A program made the position numbers and the translations under genes. The notes beneath the pieces were generated by a model. It searched no databases. It saw only the letters and a list, made by a program, of their open reading frames with translations, and was not told the origin of the DNA. From a virus, in IMG/VR virus record IMGVR_UViG_3300031578_000340, positions 1 through 23,427 of that record: 23,427 nucleotides of DNA; one strand, 5' to 3'. Positions 710 to 8,642 of this stretch are shown here, one piece after another; positions within the stretch are counted from its first letter, which is position 1, and the number at the start of each line of letters is the position of its first letter.

Positions 710-1891
710 TCAATTAGATATAGTATAATTAATTAAATTAAATAAAGAAAACCTTTCGCTTAAACTCTTTTCGATATCCCTTCGAATTCCCTCGACGAAA
801 TACAAACTATCGTGAACAGACAAACATCCTTCATCTACATATTGATTACAAACATTTATAAATATATCTGACTCTAACTTTTGAAGTGTCAACCAGATTT
901 CTTCATTCCTTTTCTTTTCTTTTATTAATTCATAAACATCAGGAAAATAATCCTGCATTAATAATTGAGCACTATTAGTTCCTCTATTATCTTTATATAA
1001 ATAAGAGAAGAATAACTTCTTAACAAAGATCCTTGACTCTTCTTTAGAATGATATTCAAACCCTCCCCACTTTTCTATTAACCAATCATATAAATCTTGT
1101 TGAGTAACTAAATCATAAAAACGTTTTACTTCTCTATTATCAGGATTCTCTTTTAATAATATAGAAGATAATAGATAAGGTTGAGAAGATTTAAGATCAA
1201 TATGTAATAGAGACTCTCCTTTATATGTACAGAATTCTCTTAATTCTTTCTTCATTATATTAAATGATGTAAAGATTCTTCCTGTTCTTATATCACTTTT
1301 AACTATGATCCTATCTTTATTATAGATAGTTGATATCTCTCTTACAGTTCTAAGAAACCTTTCACCTGTGTATTGTCTTGCAAATTGTTCTGCTTTAACT
1401 AAATCAATATCTAAATCAGATATAGTATTATAATGTTGTAATAGAATAGGATCAGAAGGGAGAGTATAATTCTTATTAATAATATTATAAGTCTTTTCTG
1501 ATATTTCACAGAATTGAAATTCTATTTCTTTATCTATAAGTTTAGAGATAAACTCTTGAGTATACCCATATGATTTACAATAGTTGTTTCCTTGATAATT
1601 AGAATAAGATGTAGAGGTTATTATACTTTTAGACTCACATATTTTAACTAATTCAACAAATTTCCATTTTTGTTTTCCATTAGGTCCATAAGTACCAAAC
1701 CATTTTCTTATATCACGAGGAAGTTCAATTAAATTATTTTCAGAGGAATGTTTTTCTAATAGATAAAATAGATGTAAGAAATCCTCTCTTTTTAAAGAAT
1801 CAGAATAATAATCCTTTAATAATTCATCTATTAAAGTGATAAAACTTTGTGTAAAGTATAAACCATATTTCATATAGGTATTTTTTTTCAT
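710..1891 (-). CDS. Minimal family-A DNA polymerase-like palm protein
   Basis: The protein is 393 residues long. Its C-terminal half carries three motifs in the order and spacing of family A polymerases. IDLKSSQPYLL (D232, SQP 236-238) resembles motif A (DYSQIELR). RIFVKKLFFSYLY (R287, K291, Y297) resembles motif B (RxxxKxxxFGxxYG). LSVHDSLYF (H360, D361) resembles motif C (VHDE). TGRIFTSF at 203-210 precedes motif A as the TGR segment does in T7-type enzymes, and E340 in QKLESDI is a likely further conserved position. No 3'-5' exonuclease domain is visible; the N-terminal 200 residues are unassigned. The expected role is template-directed nucleotide addition in phage or plasmid-like replication, which is inference from motifs. 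The ATG at 1891 sits 16 nt after the stop of a leader peptide; M7 is an alternative start. Expression is probably controlled by the structured leader. Confidence 0.6.
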   Translation of the reverse strand: MKKNTYMKYGLYFTQSFITLIDELLKDYYSDSLKREDFLHLFYLLEKHSSENNLIELPRDIRKWFGTYGPNGKQKWKFVELVKICESKSIITSTSYSNYQGNNYCKSYGYTQEFISKLIDKEIEFQFCEISEKTYNIINKNYTLPSDPILLQHYNTISDLDIDLVKAEQFARQYTGERFLRTVREISTIYNKDRIIVKSDIRTGRIFTSFNIMKKELREFCTYKGESLLHIDLKSSQPYLLSSILLKENPDNREVKRFYDLVTQQDLYDWLIEKWGGFEYHSKEESRIFVKKLFFSYLYKDNRGTNSAQLLMQDYFPDVYELIKEKKRNEEIWLTLQKLESDIFINVCNQYVDEGCLSVHDSLYFVEGIRRDIEKSLSERFSLFNLINYTISN

Positions 1892-3266: not shown

Positions 3267-3287
3267 AGTTTTTATTTATTTTAGTTT
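3253..3287. repeat. 35-bp direct repeat, copy 2 of 2 (start region of the 68-residue gene)
   Basis: It matches 3019-3053 with one mismatch and spans the leader and first codons of the 68-residue membrane gene, reaching the stop of the ankyrin gene. Confidence 0.7.
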
Positions 3288-3658
3288 TACTTTTTAGCTA
3301 TCCAATCTTCAAGAACTTTAACTACTTTAGTACGTCCATATATAGTTGCATATCGTAAAGCCCATTTATCTTTTGCTTGTACATCTGCTCCAGCATCTAA
3401 TAAAAGTTTAACTACTTTAGTATGTCCTCCTATACTTGCTACTAATAAAGCAGCATCACCTTCTGCGTGCACATCTGCTCCAGCTTCAAGTAAAATTTTA
3501 ATTATTTCAGTATATCCAGTATTACTTGCCTCTCGTAAAGGAGCATCATTATCTGCGTGCACATCTGCTCCTGTCTCAAGTAGGGTTTTAACCTGTTCAA
3601 TATATCCATAATGACAGGCTGCTAATAATAACATTTTTGATAATTTTGTTGTTTTCAT
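3287..3658 (-). CDS. Ankyrin-repeat protein with a 30-residue period
   Basis: Of 123 residues nearly all are ankyrin repeats. GADV-type turns begin at residues 31, 61 and 91, and each is followed by ALR/LLVAS then GxTxxxKxLL. The period is 30 rather than the usual 33, because the GxTPLH turn is shortened to APLR, ALL or ALR. This is the form familiar from Mimivirus ankyrin proteins. There is no signal peptide or catalytic domain, so a protein-binding role, perhaps against a host factor, is inferred. At DNA level the three repeats are clearly related, including a recurring ACATCTGCTCC on the plus strand. The start has the shared leader, whose AACTAAAA overlaps the TAA of the nuclease-like gene. 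Confidence 0.85.
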   Translation of the reverse strand: MKTTKLSKMLLLAACHYGYIEQVKTLLETGADVHADNDAPLREASNTGYTEIIKILLEAGADVHAEGDAALLVASIGGHTKVVKLLLDAGADVQAKDKWALRYATIYGRTKVVKVLEDWIAKK

Positions 3659-4612: not shown

Positions 4613-6283
4613 TCATCTGGTGATCTTCTGAATGACATTATTATCAAATGATAATGTACTCTTTTCTTTACTATATTTCATTACATCAAACCAACCAAAA
4701 TAAAATTCAGTATAATATCGTTTTGTCCAAGAAGTTAAAAGTACTTTAATAGGTAAAGGATTGTTAAAAGCAAATAACTCAATATATACAACCTTATCTT
4801 TATTAAAAGCATTTGTATTTCTAACATAACCTTCCCATTTTTTAGTATATTTCTTTAAGTCCTCAATGTCATAATTATCTACATTATAAATGAGTATTTT
4901 GTCAACATACTTTTGAGTATATTCATATTGTGTATCATAATTTGTTTCTTCTTTACCTGCTTTTAATATATCTATAACATTTACATCTTTATATTTCTTA
5001 ATAAAATCTTGTATTTGTTTTATACTATTTTCATTACTTATTAACTCATTTCTTAAAGTAGTTTGTTCTTTATTAAATTCAACCTCTGAAATATATCCAT
5101 TTTTATACATATTATTAACTCTCTTTTTCTTAGCATTAATAATACCTACTTCACCTAAAAAATATTCAAGTTGTTTATTTTTCTCTTCAATATTGATTAA
5201 TTTTTTTTGTTCATCCTTAAAATAACTTTGAGTTTCTACACTTAGACTTTGGTTAAATAGACTTTTATATAAAATATCATCAAGAAATTTACTATCAAAT
5301 TGTCCTCCATCACATTTAACATTCATTGATTTACTATTACAAAAATAAAATGATGGTTGCCCAGGATAACGAGTTTCAGTTCTTGTTTGATATAAATAAC
5401 CACAATTCCCACATAGTATTTTTGTTTTAAAAAGATAATGATATTTTGTTCTTGCTCTATAGCCTATTCGATTTTTTAAAATATCTTGTGCTTTATTCCA
5501 TCTTTCATTGTCAATAATTTGAGGAACTTTTACAATTTCACCTTTGTAATTCCTTTCACCTTTGTAGATAGTATTTCTTAAAATTATATTAATCGAATTA
5601 TTTTTCCAGAGTATTTTAAAGGAATCTCCATTAGCCATCTCTCTCCTTTTTCCAAACGTTGTATGTCTTGTAGGAATACCTTTACTATTAAGATTTATAG
5701 CAATTCTTCTTATTGGAACACCATTAACATAATTATCAAAAATTTCATTAATTATCTTAGATTCCTTTTCATTAATTTGTAAATATCCATCCTTATCAGC
5801 ACTAAAACCATAAGGTAAAAAACAATATCCTGCTCTTTTACCTTTCATTACTGATGAATACCTTCCTCTTGCCATTCTTCCTAATGTTGTATCTCTTTCC
5901 AGTTCAGCAATTGATGATAACAAACTTATAAGAAGTTTATTTGAAGCATCATCAGATAAGGTGTTTAGATTCTCTTTCTTAAAATAAATGTTAATATTCT
6001 TTTTAGAAAAGAAATTTATTTCATTAAGAGTTTGTGAAGTGGATCTCCCAAGTCTTGATAATTCCCAGATTAGAATTTGATTTATGTCATTTTTAATAAC
6101 ATATTCTTTCATTTTATCATACTCTACTCTATCGGCATTGGGATCGTAACCAGAAATGCTCTCACCATAGATTGCCTTAACATCAAAATCATTTGCTTTA
6201 GCATATCTAAGTAAATCTTCTTTTTGGGTTTCAAAATTTTGTTGAACTGTTGAAACTCTACTGTAAATGACACACTTTTTCAT
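4613..6283 (-). CDS. Large serine recombinase, probable phage integrase
   Basis: With the ATG at 6283 the protein is 556 residues. The N-terminal resolvase domain has YSRVST (R9, catalytic S11) and ELSRLGRS (R77, R80), all expected active-site residues. A recombinase domain follows, then a zinc ribbon (CGNCGY, with a later FYFCNS and VKCDGG) and a lysine/glutamate-rich coiled coil. This is the architecture of large serine integrases that join attP to attB without needing long homology. An upstream in-frame ATG at 6346 would add 21 Phe/Tyr/Ile-rich residues before the resolvase fold; I reject it because family members start at the KKCVIYSRVS strand. The gene sits between two terminators, so it is likely its own transcription unit. 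Confidence 0.93.
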   Translation of the reverse strand: MKKCVIYSRVSTVQQNFETQKEDLLRYAKANDFDVKAIYGESISGYDPNADRVEYDKMKEYVIKNDINQILIWELSRLGRSTSQTLNEINFFSKKNINIYFKKENLNTLSDDASNKLLISLLSSIAELERDTTLGRMARGRYSSVMKGKRAGYCFLPYGFSADKDGYLQINEKESKIINEIFDNYVNGVPIRRIAINLNSKGIPTRHTTFGKRREMANGDSFKILWKNNSINIILRNTIYKGERNYKGEIVKVPQIIDNERWNKAQDILKNRIGYRARTKYHYLFKTKILCGNCGYLYQTRTETRYPGQPSFYFCNSKSMNVKCDGGQFDSKFLDDILYKSLFNQSLSVETQSYFKDEQKKLINIEEKNKQLEYFLGEVGIINAKKKRVNNMYKNGYISEVEFNKEQTTLRNELISNENSIKQIQDFIKKYKDVNVIDILKAGKEETNYDTQYEYTQKYVDKILIYNVDNYDIEDLKKYTKKWEGYVRNTNAFNKDKVVYIELFAFNNPLPIKVLLTSWTKRYYTEFYFGWFDVMKYSKEKSTLSFDNNVIQKITR

Positions 6284-6343
6284 ATTTTTATATTTTGAAG
6301 TTATGTAAATATAAAAATAAAAATTTACAGTATAATCAAATAT

Positions 6344-6363
6344 CAATTGATTTTATTCAATTG
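6344..6363. promoter_or_regulatory. Palindrome upstream of the recombinase gene
   Basis: CAATTGA (6344-6350) and TCAATTG (6357-6363) are perfect 7-bp arms around TTTTAT. The site lies 61 bp upstream of the recombinase start in a non-coding gap. It could be an operator or part of attP, because phage attachment sites for serine integrases normally adjoin the integrase gene. The sequence alone cannot decide. Confidence 0.35.
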
Positions 6364-6405: not shown

Positions 6406-6438
6406 AAAGAGGATTATCATTTTCAAATAATCCTCTTT
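6406..6438 (-). terminator. Intrinsic terminator after the 113-residue gene
   Basis: AAAGAGGATTAT (6406-6417) and ATAATCCTCTTT (6427-6438) are perfect 12-bp arms with a 9-nt loop. On the minus strand the stem runs into TTTTAATTT. It separates the 113-residue gene from the recombinase gene. Bases 6284-6405 beyond it contain the palindrome described separately and no ORF. Confidence 0.8.
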
Positions 6439-6463: not shown

Positions 6464-6805
6464 CTACTCAATAACATTTTTAACCTTTTTCTTAGGCTTT
6501 GGTGGTATATATTTACCATATGTTTTTTCAAGATCTGCTAAGTTACTTTCATACACTTCCAATTTTTGTTGAATATCGGTAATATCCATTCCTAAAGATT
6601 CATCTCTTTTTATTTGAGCTTTAGTTTGGTTAACTGATGTATATAATATTTTCATTTTATCTTTATCTTCTTTATCTTTAGAAACAGTCCACTTCTCAGC
6701 CCATTTAGCAAGTTTAACAATTTTTTGAGATTGTTTATTAGATTCCCATTGACTTAAAATGTCATTTAAAAATTTTTTAGCTTCTGATAATGTTCTTTCT
6801 GCCAT
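6464..6805 (-). CDS. Hypothetical helical protein, 113 residues
   Basis: The product is Lys/Glu-rich and predicted helical throughout, with likely coiled-coil stretches at about 60-95 and a basic tail (PPKPKKKVKNV). No catalytic motif or membrane segment is seen, and I recognise no family. The start carries the AACTAAAA...ACTATG leader shared with the accessory genes near 3 kb, although here it does not overlap an upstream stop. It follows the 419-residue gene by 46 nt and is closed by a strong terminator, so it may be cotranscribed with that gene. Confidence 0.65.
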   Translation of the reverse strand: MAERTLSEAKKFLNDILSQWESNKQSQKIVKLAKWAEKWTVSKDKEDKDKMKILYTSVNQTKAQIKRDESLGMDITDIQQKLEVYESNLADLEKTYGKYIPPKPKKKVKNVIE

Positions 6806-6851: not shown

Positions 6852-8111
6852 TTAATTAAACAAATATTTCATTTTTAAAGGAACACTATAATCAGATAAT
6901 CTTAAATAATCATCAATATGTTCCTTTAATACTAAATAAAAAATATAATATGTTACTTTATTATATACCTTAGGAACAAGAACAGAATCAAATAAAGGAA
7001 TAAAAGGTATATCACATTTCTTCATTCTTTTCCAAACATCTCTCATAATGTTAACTATTCTTAATCTAATTACAAGAGGAACTATTTTATAGTAGGCTTG
7101 TCCTCTTTTAAATGCTGGATGATTTTCGCTTATTTTTAACCTAACATCAGATTTTAAAATTTTAGGTTTAATGTTTGAAGCAAACCCTAAAAAATAATCT
7201 ATGTCACTTCTTCCACTTTTAATTTGATATAATTTATCATATGCTTTAGGCCATTTCTTTTGAAATTGTTCTATATGATCATATCCAAAAATAGCTGAAT
7301 AAAAGGTTTTATCATATATTTCATCAAATATGTCATAATCTTTTTCTGATTTAAATAAACTTTTTGAGTATTTACCTTTTCTATAATAACTTGAAAAATC
7401 ATTCTTTCCTATAGTTTTTAATAATTGATCCGCAAGTACTAAAGGAATACTATCATAAAATCCTACTTCCCAAGGATCTACAATACTTGTATAATGTAAA
7501 AGTTCTCTATATTTTGTAAACAAACTTAAATGTTCTCCAGCAAATTTATTATTATCAAATCCAAATCTATTTATATAATAATCTTTTAATGTAGGATCAC
7601 CGTATTCATCAATTACATTTAATATAATTGGATTATAACTATATCTTTCTCTTACATCTTGAGGTAAATCTATTTTAATATATTTATATATAGAATTGTA
7701 ATGATTCATATATTGTCCATTTAATAGATGTAGATGCTCATCAATCCACTTTGTTAATAAATCATCATATAAAATTACCTCATATAAATCCAATAACTTT
7801 CTATTAACTTTATATAAATGGGCATCTTGTTTTTCTGGTTTTGTAAGTCCAGTAGCAATATAATATTGAGTATTCTTATGTGTTGAAGGTAAAAGATCTA
7901 TATATTTATTGTCAATTAAGAATTCAATAATTTTATTTTTATATTTGCTTTCTAATCGTTTAATGAATGAAGCTGGAATATAACTTACATCATACCCTCC
8001 TCTACTAACTACAAATAAATATCCTATAACACCAACACATAATTTAAAAAACGGATTTTGTATTTCCTTGAAATCCAAGATATTATAGTTTTTGTACTTA
8101 ATTTTACTCAT
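6852..8111 (-). CDS. Degenerate polymerase-like palm protein, 419 residues
   Basis: I know no named family. Its plan follows that of the 393-residue polymerase-like protein: an N-terminal segment ending in LYKVNRKLL, then VGFYDSIPLVLADQL (216-230) in the place of motif A, KTFYSAIFG (268-276) in the place of motif B, and IPLFDSVLV (371-379) in the place of motif C. A helix RIVNIMRDVWKRM precedes motif C as in the other protein. The motif A Asp position is Gly or shifted, the TGR segment is lost and the motif C His is Phe. D375 is kept. Catalysis is therefore doubtful; a binding, regulatory or immunity-like role is possible. It has its own host-type promoter and is preceded by a terminator, like a moron gene expressed from the prophage. 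Confidence 0.6.
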   Translation of the reverse strand: MSKIKYKNYNILDFKEIQNPFFKLCVGVIGYLFVVSRGGYDVSYIPASFIKRLESKYKNKIIEFLIDNKYIDLLPSTHKNTQYYIATGLTKPEKQDAHLYKVNRKLLDLYEVILYDDLLTKWIDEHLHLLNGQYMNHYNSIYKYIKIDLPQDVRERYSYNPIILNVIDEYGDPTLKDYYINRFGFDNNKFAGEHLSLFTKYRELLHYTSIVDPWEVGFYDSIPLVLADQLLKTIGKNDFSSYYRKGKYSKSLFKSEKDYDIFDEIYDKTFYSAIFGYDHIEQFQKKWPKAYDKLYQIKSGRSDIDYFLGFASNIKPKILKSDVRLKISENHPAFKRGQAYYKIVPLVIRLRIVNIMRDVWKRMKKCDIPFIPLFDSVLVPKVYNKVTYYIFYLVLKEHIDDYLRLSDYSVPLKMKYLFN

Positions 8112-8116
8112 AAGTA

Positions 8117-8147
8117 CAAATATACTTGATTTTCAATTCTTTACAAA
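8117..8147 (-). promoter_or_regulatory. Bacteroidota-type promoter, nearly leaderless
   Basis: On the minus strand TTTG (8147-8144), a 19-nt spacer and TATATTTG (8124-8117) match the Bacteroidota housekeeping consensus of a -33 TTTG and a -7 TAnnTTTG box. The ATG of the 419-residue gene begins 6 nt after the last G, so the expected transcript starts at or just before the start codon. Confidence 0.65.
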
Positions 8148-8259: not shown

Positions 8260-8297
8260 TAATTTAAAATAAAAAGATAAGGTTTCCTATAAACAAA

Positions 8298-8326
8298 AAA
8301 ATAGGGGCTTAAATTGCCCCTATTTT
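8298..8326 (-). terminator. Intrinsic terminator after the 98-residue gene
   Basis: AAAATAGGGGC (8298-8308) and GCCCCTATTTT (8316-8326) are perfect 11-bp arms with a 7-nt loop, and on the minus strand the stem runs into seven T residues. It closes the transcript coming from the virion and lysis side and insulates the promoter of the 419-residue gene. Confidence 0.85.
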
Positions 8327-8345
8327 CATTCTAAAAAATTAAATA

Positions 8346-8642
8346 TTATTTCTCAGAATCTTTTTTCTCCCTTTTTACAGTAGTAGGAAGTTGTTTTTTC
8401 ATTTCATCAATTTTGCTCCTTAATTCCTTAAGATTATTTGTAATATCCTTAGGAACAGGAATCTTAATTTCATCAAGTCTTTTTTGAATATTGAAGAGTT
8501 TGTTGTAATCCCTTTCAGAATTATAAACTTCTCTTCTCATTTGAGTAATGATACCTCTGTTAACTAAATTAAGAACTTTTGCTACTTCTTCTTTTGATGG
8601 ATTAGTGTCCATCCATTCTTGAATACTCTTTAACGTTTTCAT
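8346..8642 (-). CDS. Hypothetical helical protein, 98 residues
   Basis: The product is charged and mostly helical, with a heptad-like stretch at about 62-88 and a basic C-terminus (VKREKKDSEK). No membrane segment, signal peptide or known motif is visible. It begins after a 147-bp non-coding gap with nested inverted repeats, and is followed immediately by a strong terminator, so it may be a separately controlled single gene. Function unknown. Confidence 0.65.
   Translation of the reverse strand: MKTLKSIQEWMDTNPSKEEVAKVLNLVNRGIITQMRREVYNSERDYNKLFNIQKRLDEIKIPVPKDITNNLKELRSKIDEMKKQLPTTVKREKKDSEK

Follow-up and report, generated by a model that had tools for sequence, protein, structure and literature searches.

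The divPolA2 proteins are divergent phage PolA proteins, regarded as putative polymerases, of barbaviruses, ICP1-like phages, and Vibrio and Aeromonas phages (Yutin et al. 2024, PMC11348598). They are about 400–450 aa long and have a family-A palm, no exonuclease, and an N-terminal domain replacing the thumb. Their gene neighbourhoods are variable, and two or three paralogues can be found per phage, with no inactivation reported. Conserved broken polymerases are known in archaeal family B, where the inactivated PolB2 group, found alongside active homologues, has broken motifs and retains a single motif C-type Asp (PMC2527604). Among the accessory genes of temperate phages, the prophage defence moron BstA carries a putative DNA-binding part (PMC8585504).

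Here we describe a phage protein of 419 residues that resembles divPolA2 in size, palm, lack of an exonuclease, replacement of the thumb, and variable gene neighbourhood. It differs in its carrier, a small temperate Bacteroidota-type phage, and in that it most likely lacks the motif A Asp, which the published divPolA2 proteins and every copy that we examined keep together with the motif B Lys. Like the archaeal PolB2 group, it has what are probably broken motifs, a retained motif C-type Asp, and a seemingly active homologue in the same genome, but that group belongs to family B and is widespread and conserved, whereas the 419-aa protein belongs to family A and comes from one phage record. Its likeness to BstA, a temperate-phage accessory gene with a putative DNA-binding part, is a functional analogy, and no homology is claimed.

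RESULTS

The 419-aa Gene Is an Intact Reading Frame in a Temperate Phage

The window analysed is the whole linear IMG/VR virus record of 23,427 bases. It carries genes for terminase, portal, protease, capsid, tail, and a large serine integrase, together with a small early region. The genome has a G+C content of 27%, and the relatives of its terminase, 66–70% identical, are other uncultured phages. The phage is temperate, small, and of Bacteroidota type. The coordinates of the features discussed below are collected in Table 1.

Table 1. Features of the 419-aa gene, its cassette, and the 393-aa gene in the window
Feature	Position	Strand	Basis or remark
Divergent divPolA2-like protein (family-A polymerase palm), 419 aa, probably catalytically inactive	6852..8111	-	ORF, profile homology, model
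Compact family-A-polymerase-like protein, 393 aa, motifs intact (GR, DLKSSQP, R...K, HDS)	710..1891	-	Kept in sister phages
Bacteroidota-type promoter TTTG-N19-TATATTTG	8117..8147	-	Five bases 5' of the 419-aa ATG
Intrinsic-terminator-like hairpin, upstream, end of preceding unit	8297..8327	-	Hairpin scan
Intrinsic-terminator-like hairpin closing the cassette, after the 113-aa gene	6406..6438	-	Hairpin scan
Charged orphan, 113 aa, second cassette gene	6464..6805	-	Absent from sister phages
Large serine integrase adjoining the cassette	4613..6346	-	Database matches
Gly217 codon, most likely motif A Asp position	7461..7463	-	Subset realignments
Asp238 codon (NDFSSYY), alternative motif A candidate	7398..7400	-	Subset realignments
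D267-K268, motif B lysine position, uncertain by one residue	7308..7313	-	Alignments
FDS (374–376), motif C, Asp375 retained	6984..6992	-	Subset realignments

The 419-aa reading frame starts with ATG and is intact over its 419 codons. Its codon signal (0.198) stands at the level of core genes (0.179 for the 393-aa gene and 0.193 for the integrase), and the remaining two forward frames of the gene contain 41 and 70 stops; we therefore take it to be a genuine coding sequence. Two other genes in the window were noted. One, at 3287–3658, encodes a 123-aa ankyrin-repeat protein that matches the candidate defence model PDC-M72A (E 8.6e-14). The other, at 181–603, encodes a 140-aa thymidylate-synthase-like protein that is conserved in sister phages and matches the middle of the profile only (Pfam E 7.9e-7; PHROG 160 E 2.8e-11), consistent with a truncated or repurposed homologue.

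Direct searches with the 419-aa protein returned no relative. It had zero matches in Pfam, PHROGs, and NCBIfam, and with PADLOC models it did not register as a known anti-phage defence system (best E 0.13). With tblastn, no relative was found in 50,697 phage records or 72,556 plasmids, and none was present in 395 Bacteroidota genomes searched whole or in ten sister phage records; scanning viral and genome contigs for peptide patterns likewise gave none. Two DNA patterns for motif C run on IMG/VR gave unrelated proteins or nothing. A PDB sequence search with the 419-aa and 393-aa proteins as single queries gave nothing, and BLASTP detected no similarity between the two (best E 0.16). Among the data searched, the 419-aa protein is known from one phage record.

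The 393-aa Protein Belongs to a Broad Family Related to divPolA2

The family of the 393-aa protein is broad in IMG/VR phages and Bacteroidota genomes, and its GR Arg, motif A Asp, motif B Lys, and motif C Asp are all invariant. Orthologues in G002 and G003, the closest sister phages, are 65% identical. The best PDB match of the family profile was the phage DNA polymerase I structure 7r0k, a weak match (E 0.033) in which the GR, R..K, and HD motifs correspond. Chromosomal relatives of about 510 aa occur in many Flavobacteriaceae (e.g. L042–L055), and in two large uncultured phages (L012:2698-5165 and L097:9494-11949) a compact member adjoins a second family-A-like polymerase gene of about 430 aa.

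A sister family, reached through weak genomic matches, aligned with the 393-aa family over its full length (hhalign E 4.6e-59). With the reference left out, its profile (seeded with L164, L165, and L167) recovered the published divPolA2 protein AUR84708 at 3e-36, Barbavirus gp036 at 3e-33, and the 393-aa protein at 1e-28; judged by these profile matches, the sister family is the published divPolA2 (PMC11348598). The same divPolA2 profile also finds the 419-aa protein, weakly.

Profile Comparison Links the 419-aa Protein to Compact Family-A Polymerases

The profile of the 393-aa family alone gave a weak match to the 419-aa protein (hhalign E 6.5e-4; E 5.8e-3 with a cleaned profile), and all 101 shuffled sequences and all 200 unrelated ORFs scored below 27.1. 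The sister-family profile matched it by hmmsearch at E 2.8e-4 over all fetched ORFs, with 18.0 bits compared with at most 8.7 in 2000 shuffles. The profile-profile alignment with the same family, which the sequence-only reading had proposed as a check, was significant (hhalign score 47.9, E 6.3e-6; range 2e-6 to 6e-6) and stood far above 120 shuffles (≤24.8) and 150 unrelated ORFs (≤23.6). A combined profile in global mode aligned the protein over its full length (E 1.5e-7). With clean controls, these comparisons place the 419-aa protein computationally in the superfamily of compact, thumb-less family-A polymerases (divPolA2).

The significance stems from the C-terminal palm segment, approximately residues 321–400, around IPFIPLFDSVLVP; the motif A stretch by itself had no significant profile match. 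The N-terminal segment aligned with the winged-helix-like part of the family, which would be compatible with a predicted binding function. The 419-aa and 393-aa proteins had originally been thought collinear, and the sister-family and combined profiles partly bear this out, whereas BLASTP found nothing and the 393-aa profile alone was weak. The tree did not place the 419-aa protein, which had the longest branch (3.43); a sister relation of the two proteins was neither supported nor excluded (AU p 0.099), and they may stem from duplication or from separate acquisition.

The Alignment-Based Model Matches Family-A Polymerases

AlphaFold2 run on the single sequence was useless (pLDDT 34.5); the protein does not fold alone. 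With an alignment of 82 relatives (A5), the model reached a pLDDT of 70.5 and a pTM of 0.69, and the motif A and motif C regions had a pLDDT of ∼84–95. By VIA-align, 50 of 50 among the matches listed were family-A DNA polymerases (Z 11–12.4), with ∼238–256 residues of the model range 133–419 superposed at an rmsd of 4–4.7; the best match had Z 12.4 and an rmsd of 4.0 over 238 residues. The leading PDB matches by Foldseek were likewise family-A polymerases (best E 4.5e-3). In BFVD, the best match was a 409-aa viral protein (E 1.8e-7), and other top matches include phage entries named "DNA polymerase" of 403–435 aa.

The polymerase palm that had been predicted is thus found in an alignment-dependent model, in a protein of the length typical of the group (about 400–450 aa) and with no exonuclease. 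Since this result is carried by the supplied alignment, it supports compatibility with the fold and is not independent proof of it. Compared with the DNA polymerase I family (Klenow, Taq, apicoplast Pol, and Pol theta), which the model matches at Z 11–12.4, the 419-aa protein has neither thumb nor exonuclease, its catalytic residues are changed, and identity does not exceed 14%.

Motif C Asp Is Kept and Motif A Asp Is Most Likely Lost

The motif A Asp is invariant in the relatives (149/149). Three MAFFT modes with 82 relatives and one run with 149 put Gly217 of the 419-aa protein in this column. Because one divPolA2-dominated alignment placed Asp238 there instead, we repeated the alignment with 48 random subsets of relatives. 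Motif C was read as FDS with Asp375 in an identical register in 48/48, so that in these alignments retention of Asp375 is certain. The motif A column was occupied by Gly217 in 40 realignments, by Asp238 in 4, by Asp168 in 3, and by Lys189 in 1. Loss of the motif A Asp, with Gly217 in its place, is most likely; the assignment follows from collinearity, and 8 of the 48 realignments disagree with it. The motif B Lys column held D267 in 25 realignments and K268 in 9, and the GR Arg column E193 in 25 and K189 in 11. An early 149-member alignment had suggested that GR, motif A, and motif B were all replaced; subset realignment softened this view and leaves motif A as the one reasonably firm loss. 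As the protein lacks an Asp at the most likely motif A position, we file it as a derivative of the family and not as a polymerase.

The FDS of motif C was considered as a sign of inactivity and rejected. AUR84708, the published divPolA2 reference, has FDE, three further members have FDS or FDA, and motif A is intact in all of them; since members whose motif A is intact can have Phe or Tyr here, Phe at this position is not damage. The motif C sequences of AUR84708 (L220:25469-26761) and the ICP1 member (L219) read FDE or YDE, not HDS/HDE. The catalytic motifs had been described as ruined from the sequence alone: the GFYDSIPLVLA stretch is found, TGR/GR is absent at its expected place, and the motif A Asp is probably lost, yet FDS, although present, does not count among the damage.

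These residues also bear on whether the 419-aa protein is a still active, very divergent polymerase, with a shifted motif A Asp, either Asp238 (within NDFSSYY) or Asp220 (within GFYDSIP), and with K268 taking over from the motif B Lys and K189 from the GR Arg. Realignments with divPolA2-type relatives only put Asp238 at motif A in 4/16 and K268 at the motif B Lys in 9/16; certain divPolA2 proteins have a motif A similar to DFSS (e.g. LDFSSMH), a Lys occupies the GR position in the ICP1 member, and Phe in motif C is tolerated in other members. However, the 40 realignments favouring Gly217 include all 16 of the mixed sets, and EVGFYDSIPLVLADQLL, compared with vEIDIKNSQPYLLaaLL, retains the Ser, the Pro, and the subsequent leucines. 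The model, which depends on the alignment, has residues 213–218 as a strand and Asp238 in a helix. We consider continued activity unlikely, although it is the best placed of the alternatives.

The Gene Forms a Separate Cassette

The Bacteroidota promoter consensus is taken from PMC7366714. TTTG-N19-TATATTTG occurs three times in the window (1.9 expected), and of these the copy before the 419-aa gene alone is both intergenic and on the coding strand; its spacing implies that the leader of the transcript would be very short or absent. A scan for generic sigma-70 promoters gave 21 where 22 were expected and was uninformative. Two terminator-like hairpins were found in the cassette region where 0.3 were expected. 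The private promoter claimed earlier is accordingly supported, and with terminators on both sides it marks out an own transcription unit.

The cassette, which consists of the 419-aa and 113-aa genes, lies between the late genes and the integrase. No relative of the 113-aa gene was found in sister phages or in the 395 Bacteroidota genomes. With its own promoter and terminator, and missing at that place from close relatives, the gene pair looks like a moron cassette, and its expression in the lysogen may be predicted. Directly upstream, at 8346–8642, lies a gene for a 98-aa protein common to sister phages; in G002 and G003 it is on the opposite strand and the opposite side of the integrase, and it has weak similarity to DndC models.

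The cassette arrangement weighs against the view that an acquired polymerase gene is decaying here and that its functionless remnant has stayed open by chance because the loss was recent. Such a remnant would fit the missing orthologues in the searched data, the long branch, and the absence of several signature residues, but 419 open codons at 27% G+C with a normal codon signal, the own promoter, and the terminator all argue otherwise. Identity to any relative is at most 22%, and divergence so deep with an open frame requires long selection; together with the core-like coding signal, this argues that the protein has long been maintained, and against recent decay. We rate a remnant below a displaced active site in probability.

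No Second Intact-plus-Broken Pair Was Found

Of 50 family-bearing IMG/VR records, two (G456 and G461) hold a second member, and their copies keep motif A. Nine named phages, six of them with two copies, were also surveyed; all copies found keep the motif A Asp and the motif B Lys. No other intact-plus-broken pair was present in these records and phages, so the survey of co-occurrence suggested earlier did not turn up the recurrence it sought. G002 and G003 keep the 393-aa protein and have no 419-aa homologue.

The division of labour put forward in the sequence-only reading finds no backing here: sister phages do without the 419-aa protein, and the two-member phages are intact in every copy examined. 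The DNA-binding, decoy, and superinfection roles suggested in that reading are guesses. The 419-aa protein could still be an inactive subunit or regulator pairing with the 393-aa polymerase, as proposed for the archaeal inactivated PolB (PMC2527604), and the presence of two proteins of one superfamily in one phage is in line with this precedent. Phages that have the 393-aa gene but not the cassette speak against an obligate subunit, the two genes lie in separate transcription units, and the pair did not recur in the surveyed phages. A partnership of the two proteins is unsupported, and we give it a lower chance again than the remnant.

DISCUSSION

That the 419-aa protein is no relative of polymerases, its motif C match convergent and its model an artefact of the supplied alignment, is very improbable: it does not fold from a single sequence and has no BLASTP, Pfam, or PHROG match, but it stands by a clear margin above shuffles and unrelated ORFs and aligns collinearly over its whole length. 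We favour the reading, at a probability of about 0.5, that it is a far-diverged member of the divPolA2 group that has lost the motif A Asp, probably does not polymerise, forms part of an accessory (moron) cassette, and most likely works by binding.

According to this favoured reading, the protein would have kept the family-A fold and the motif C Asp and lost the metal-binding Asp of motif A, and polymerisation is probably gone. The 419-aa and 113-aa genes would be an independently transcribed accessory cassette that a temperate phage carries next to its integrase. The palm and fingers, together with the N-terminal winged-helix-like part, may bind, and not extend, a nucleic acid or replication complex, and the bound target could be, for example, the replication complex of a competing phage. 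That it acts against competing phages is a guess, suggested by where the cassette lies and by the BstA precedent. The fuller proposal, in which a family-A polymerase became a non-catalytic nucleic-acid or replisome binder acting with a small partner against the replication of competing phages, is doubtful, and we hold it far less probable than the favoured reading as a whole.

With the 393-aa gene, the divPolA2 group reaches beyond large phages into small temperate Bacteroidota-type phages, where this gene is conserved in the early region. If our reading of the 419-aa protein is true, a phage polymerase would have turned into a pseudoenzyme within the divPolA2 group, and the protein would offer a natural catalysis-minus counterpart for asking whether divPolA2-type proteins synthesise or bind.
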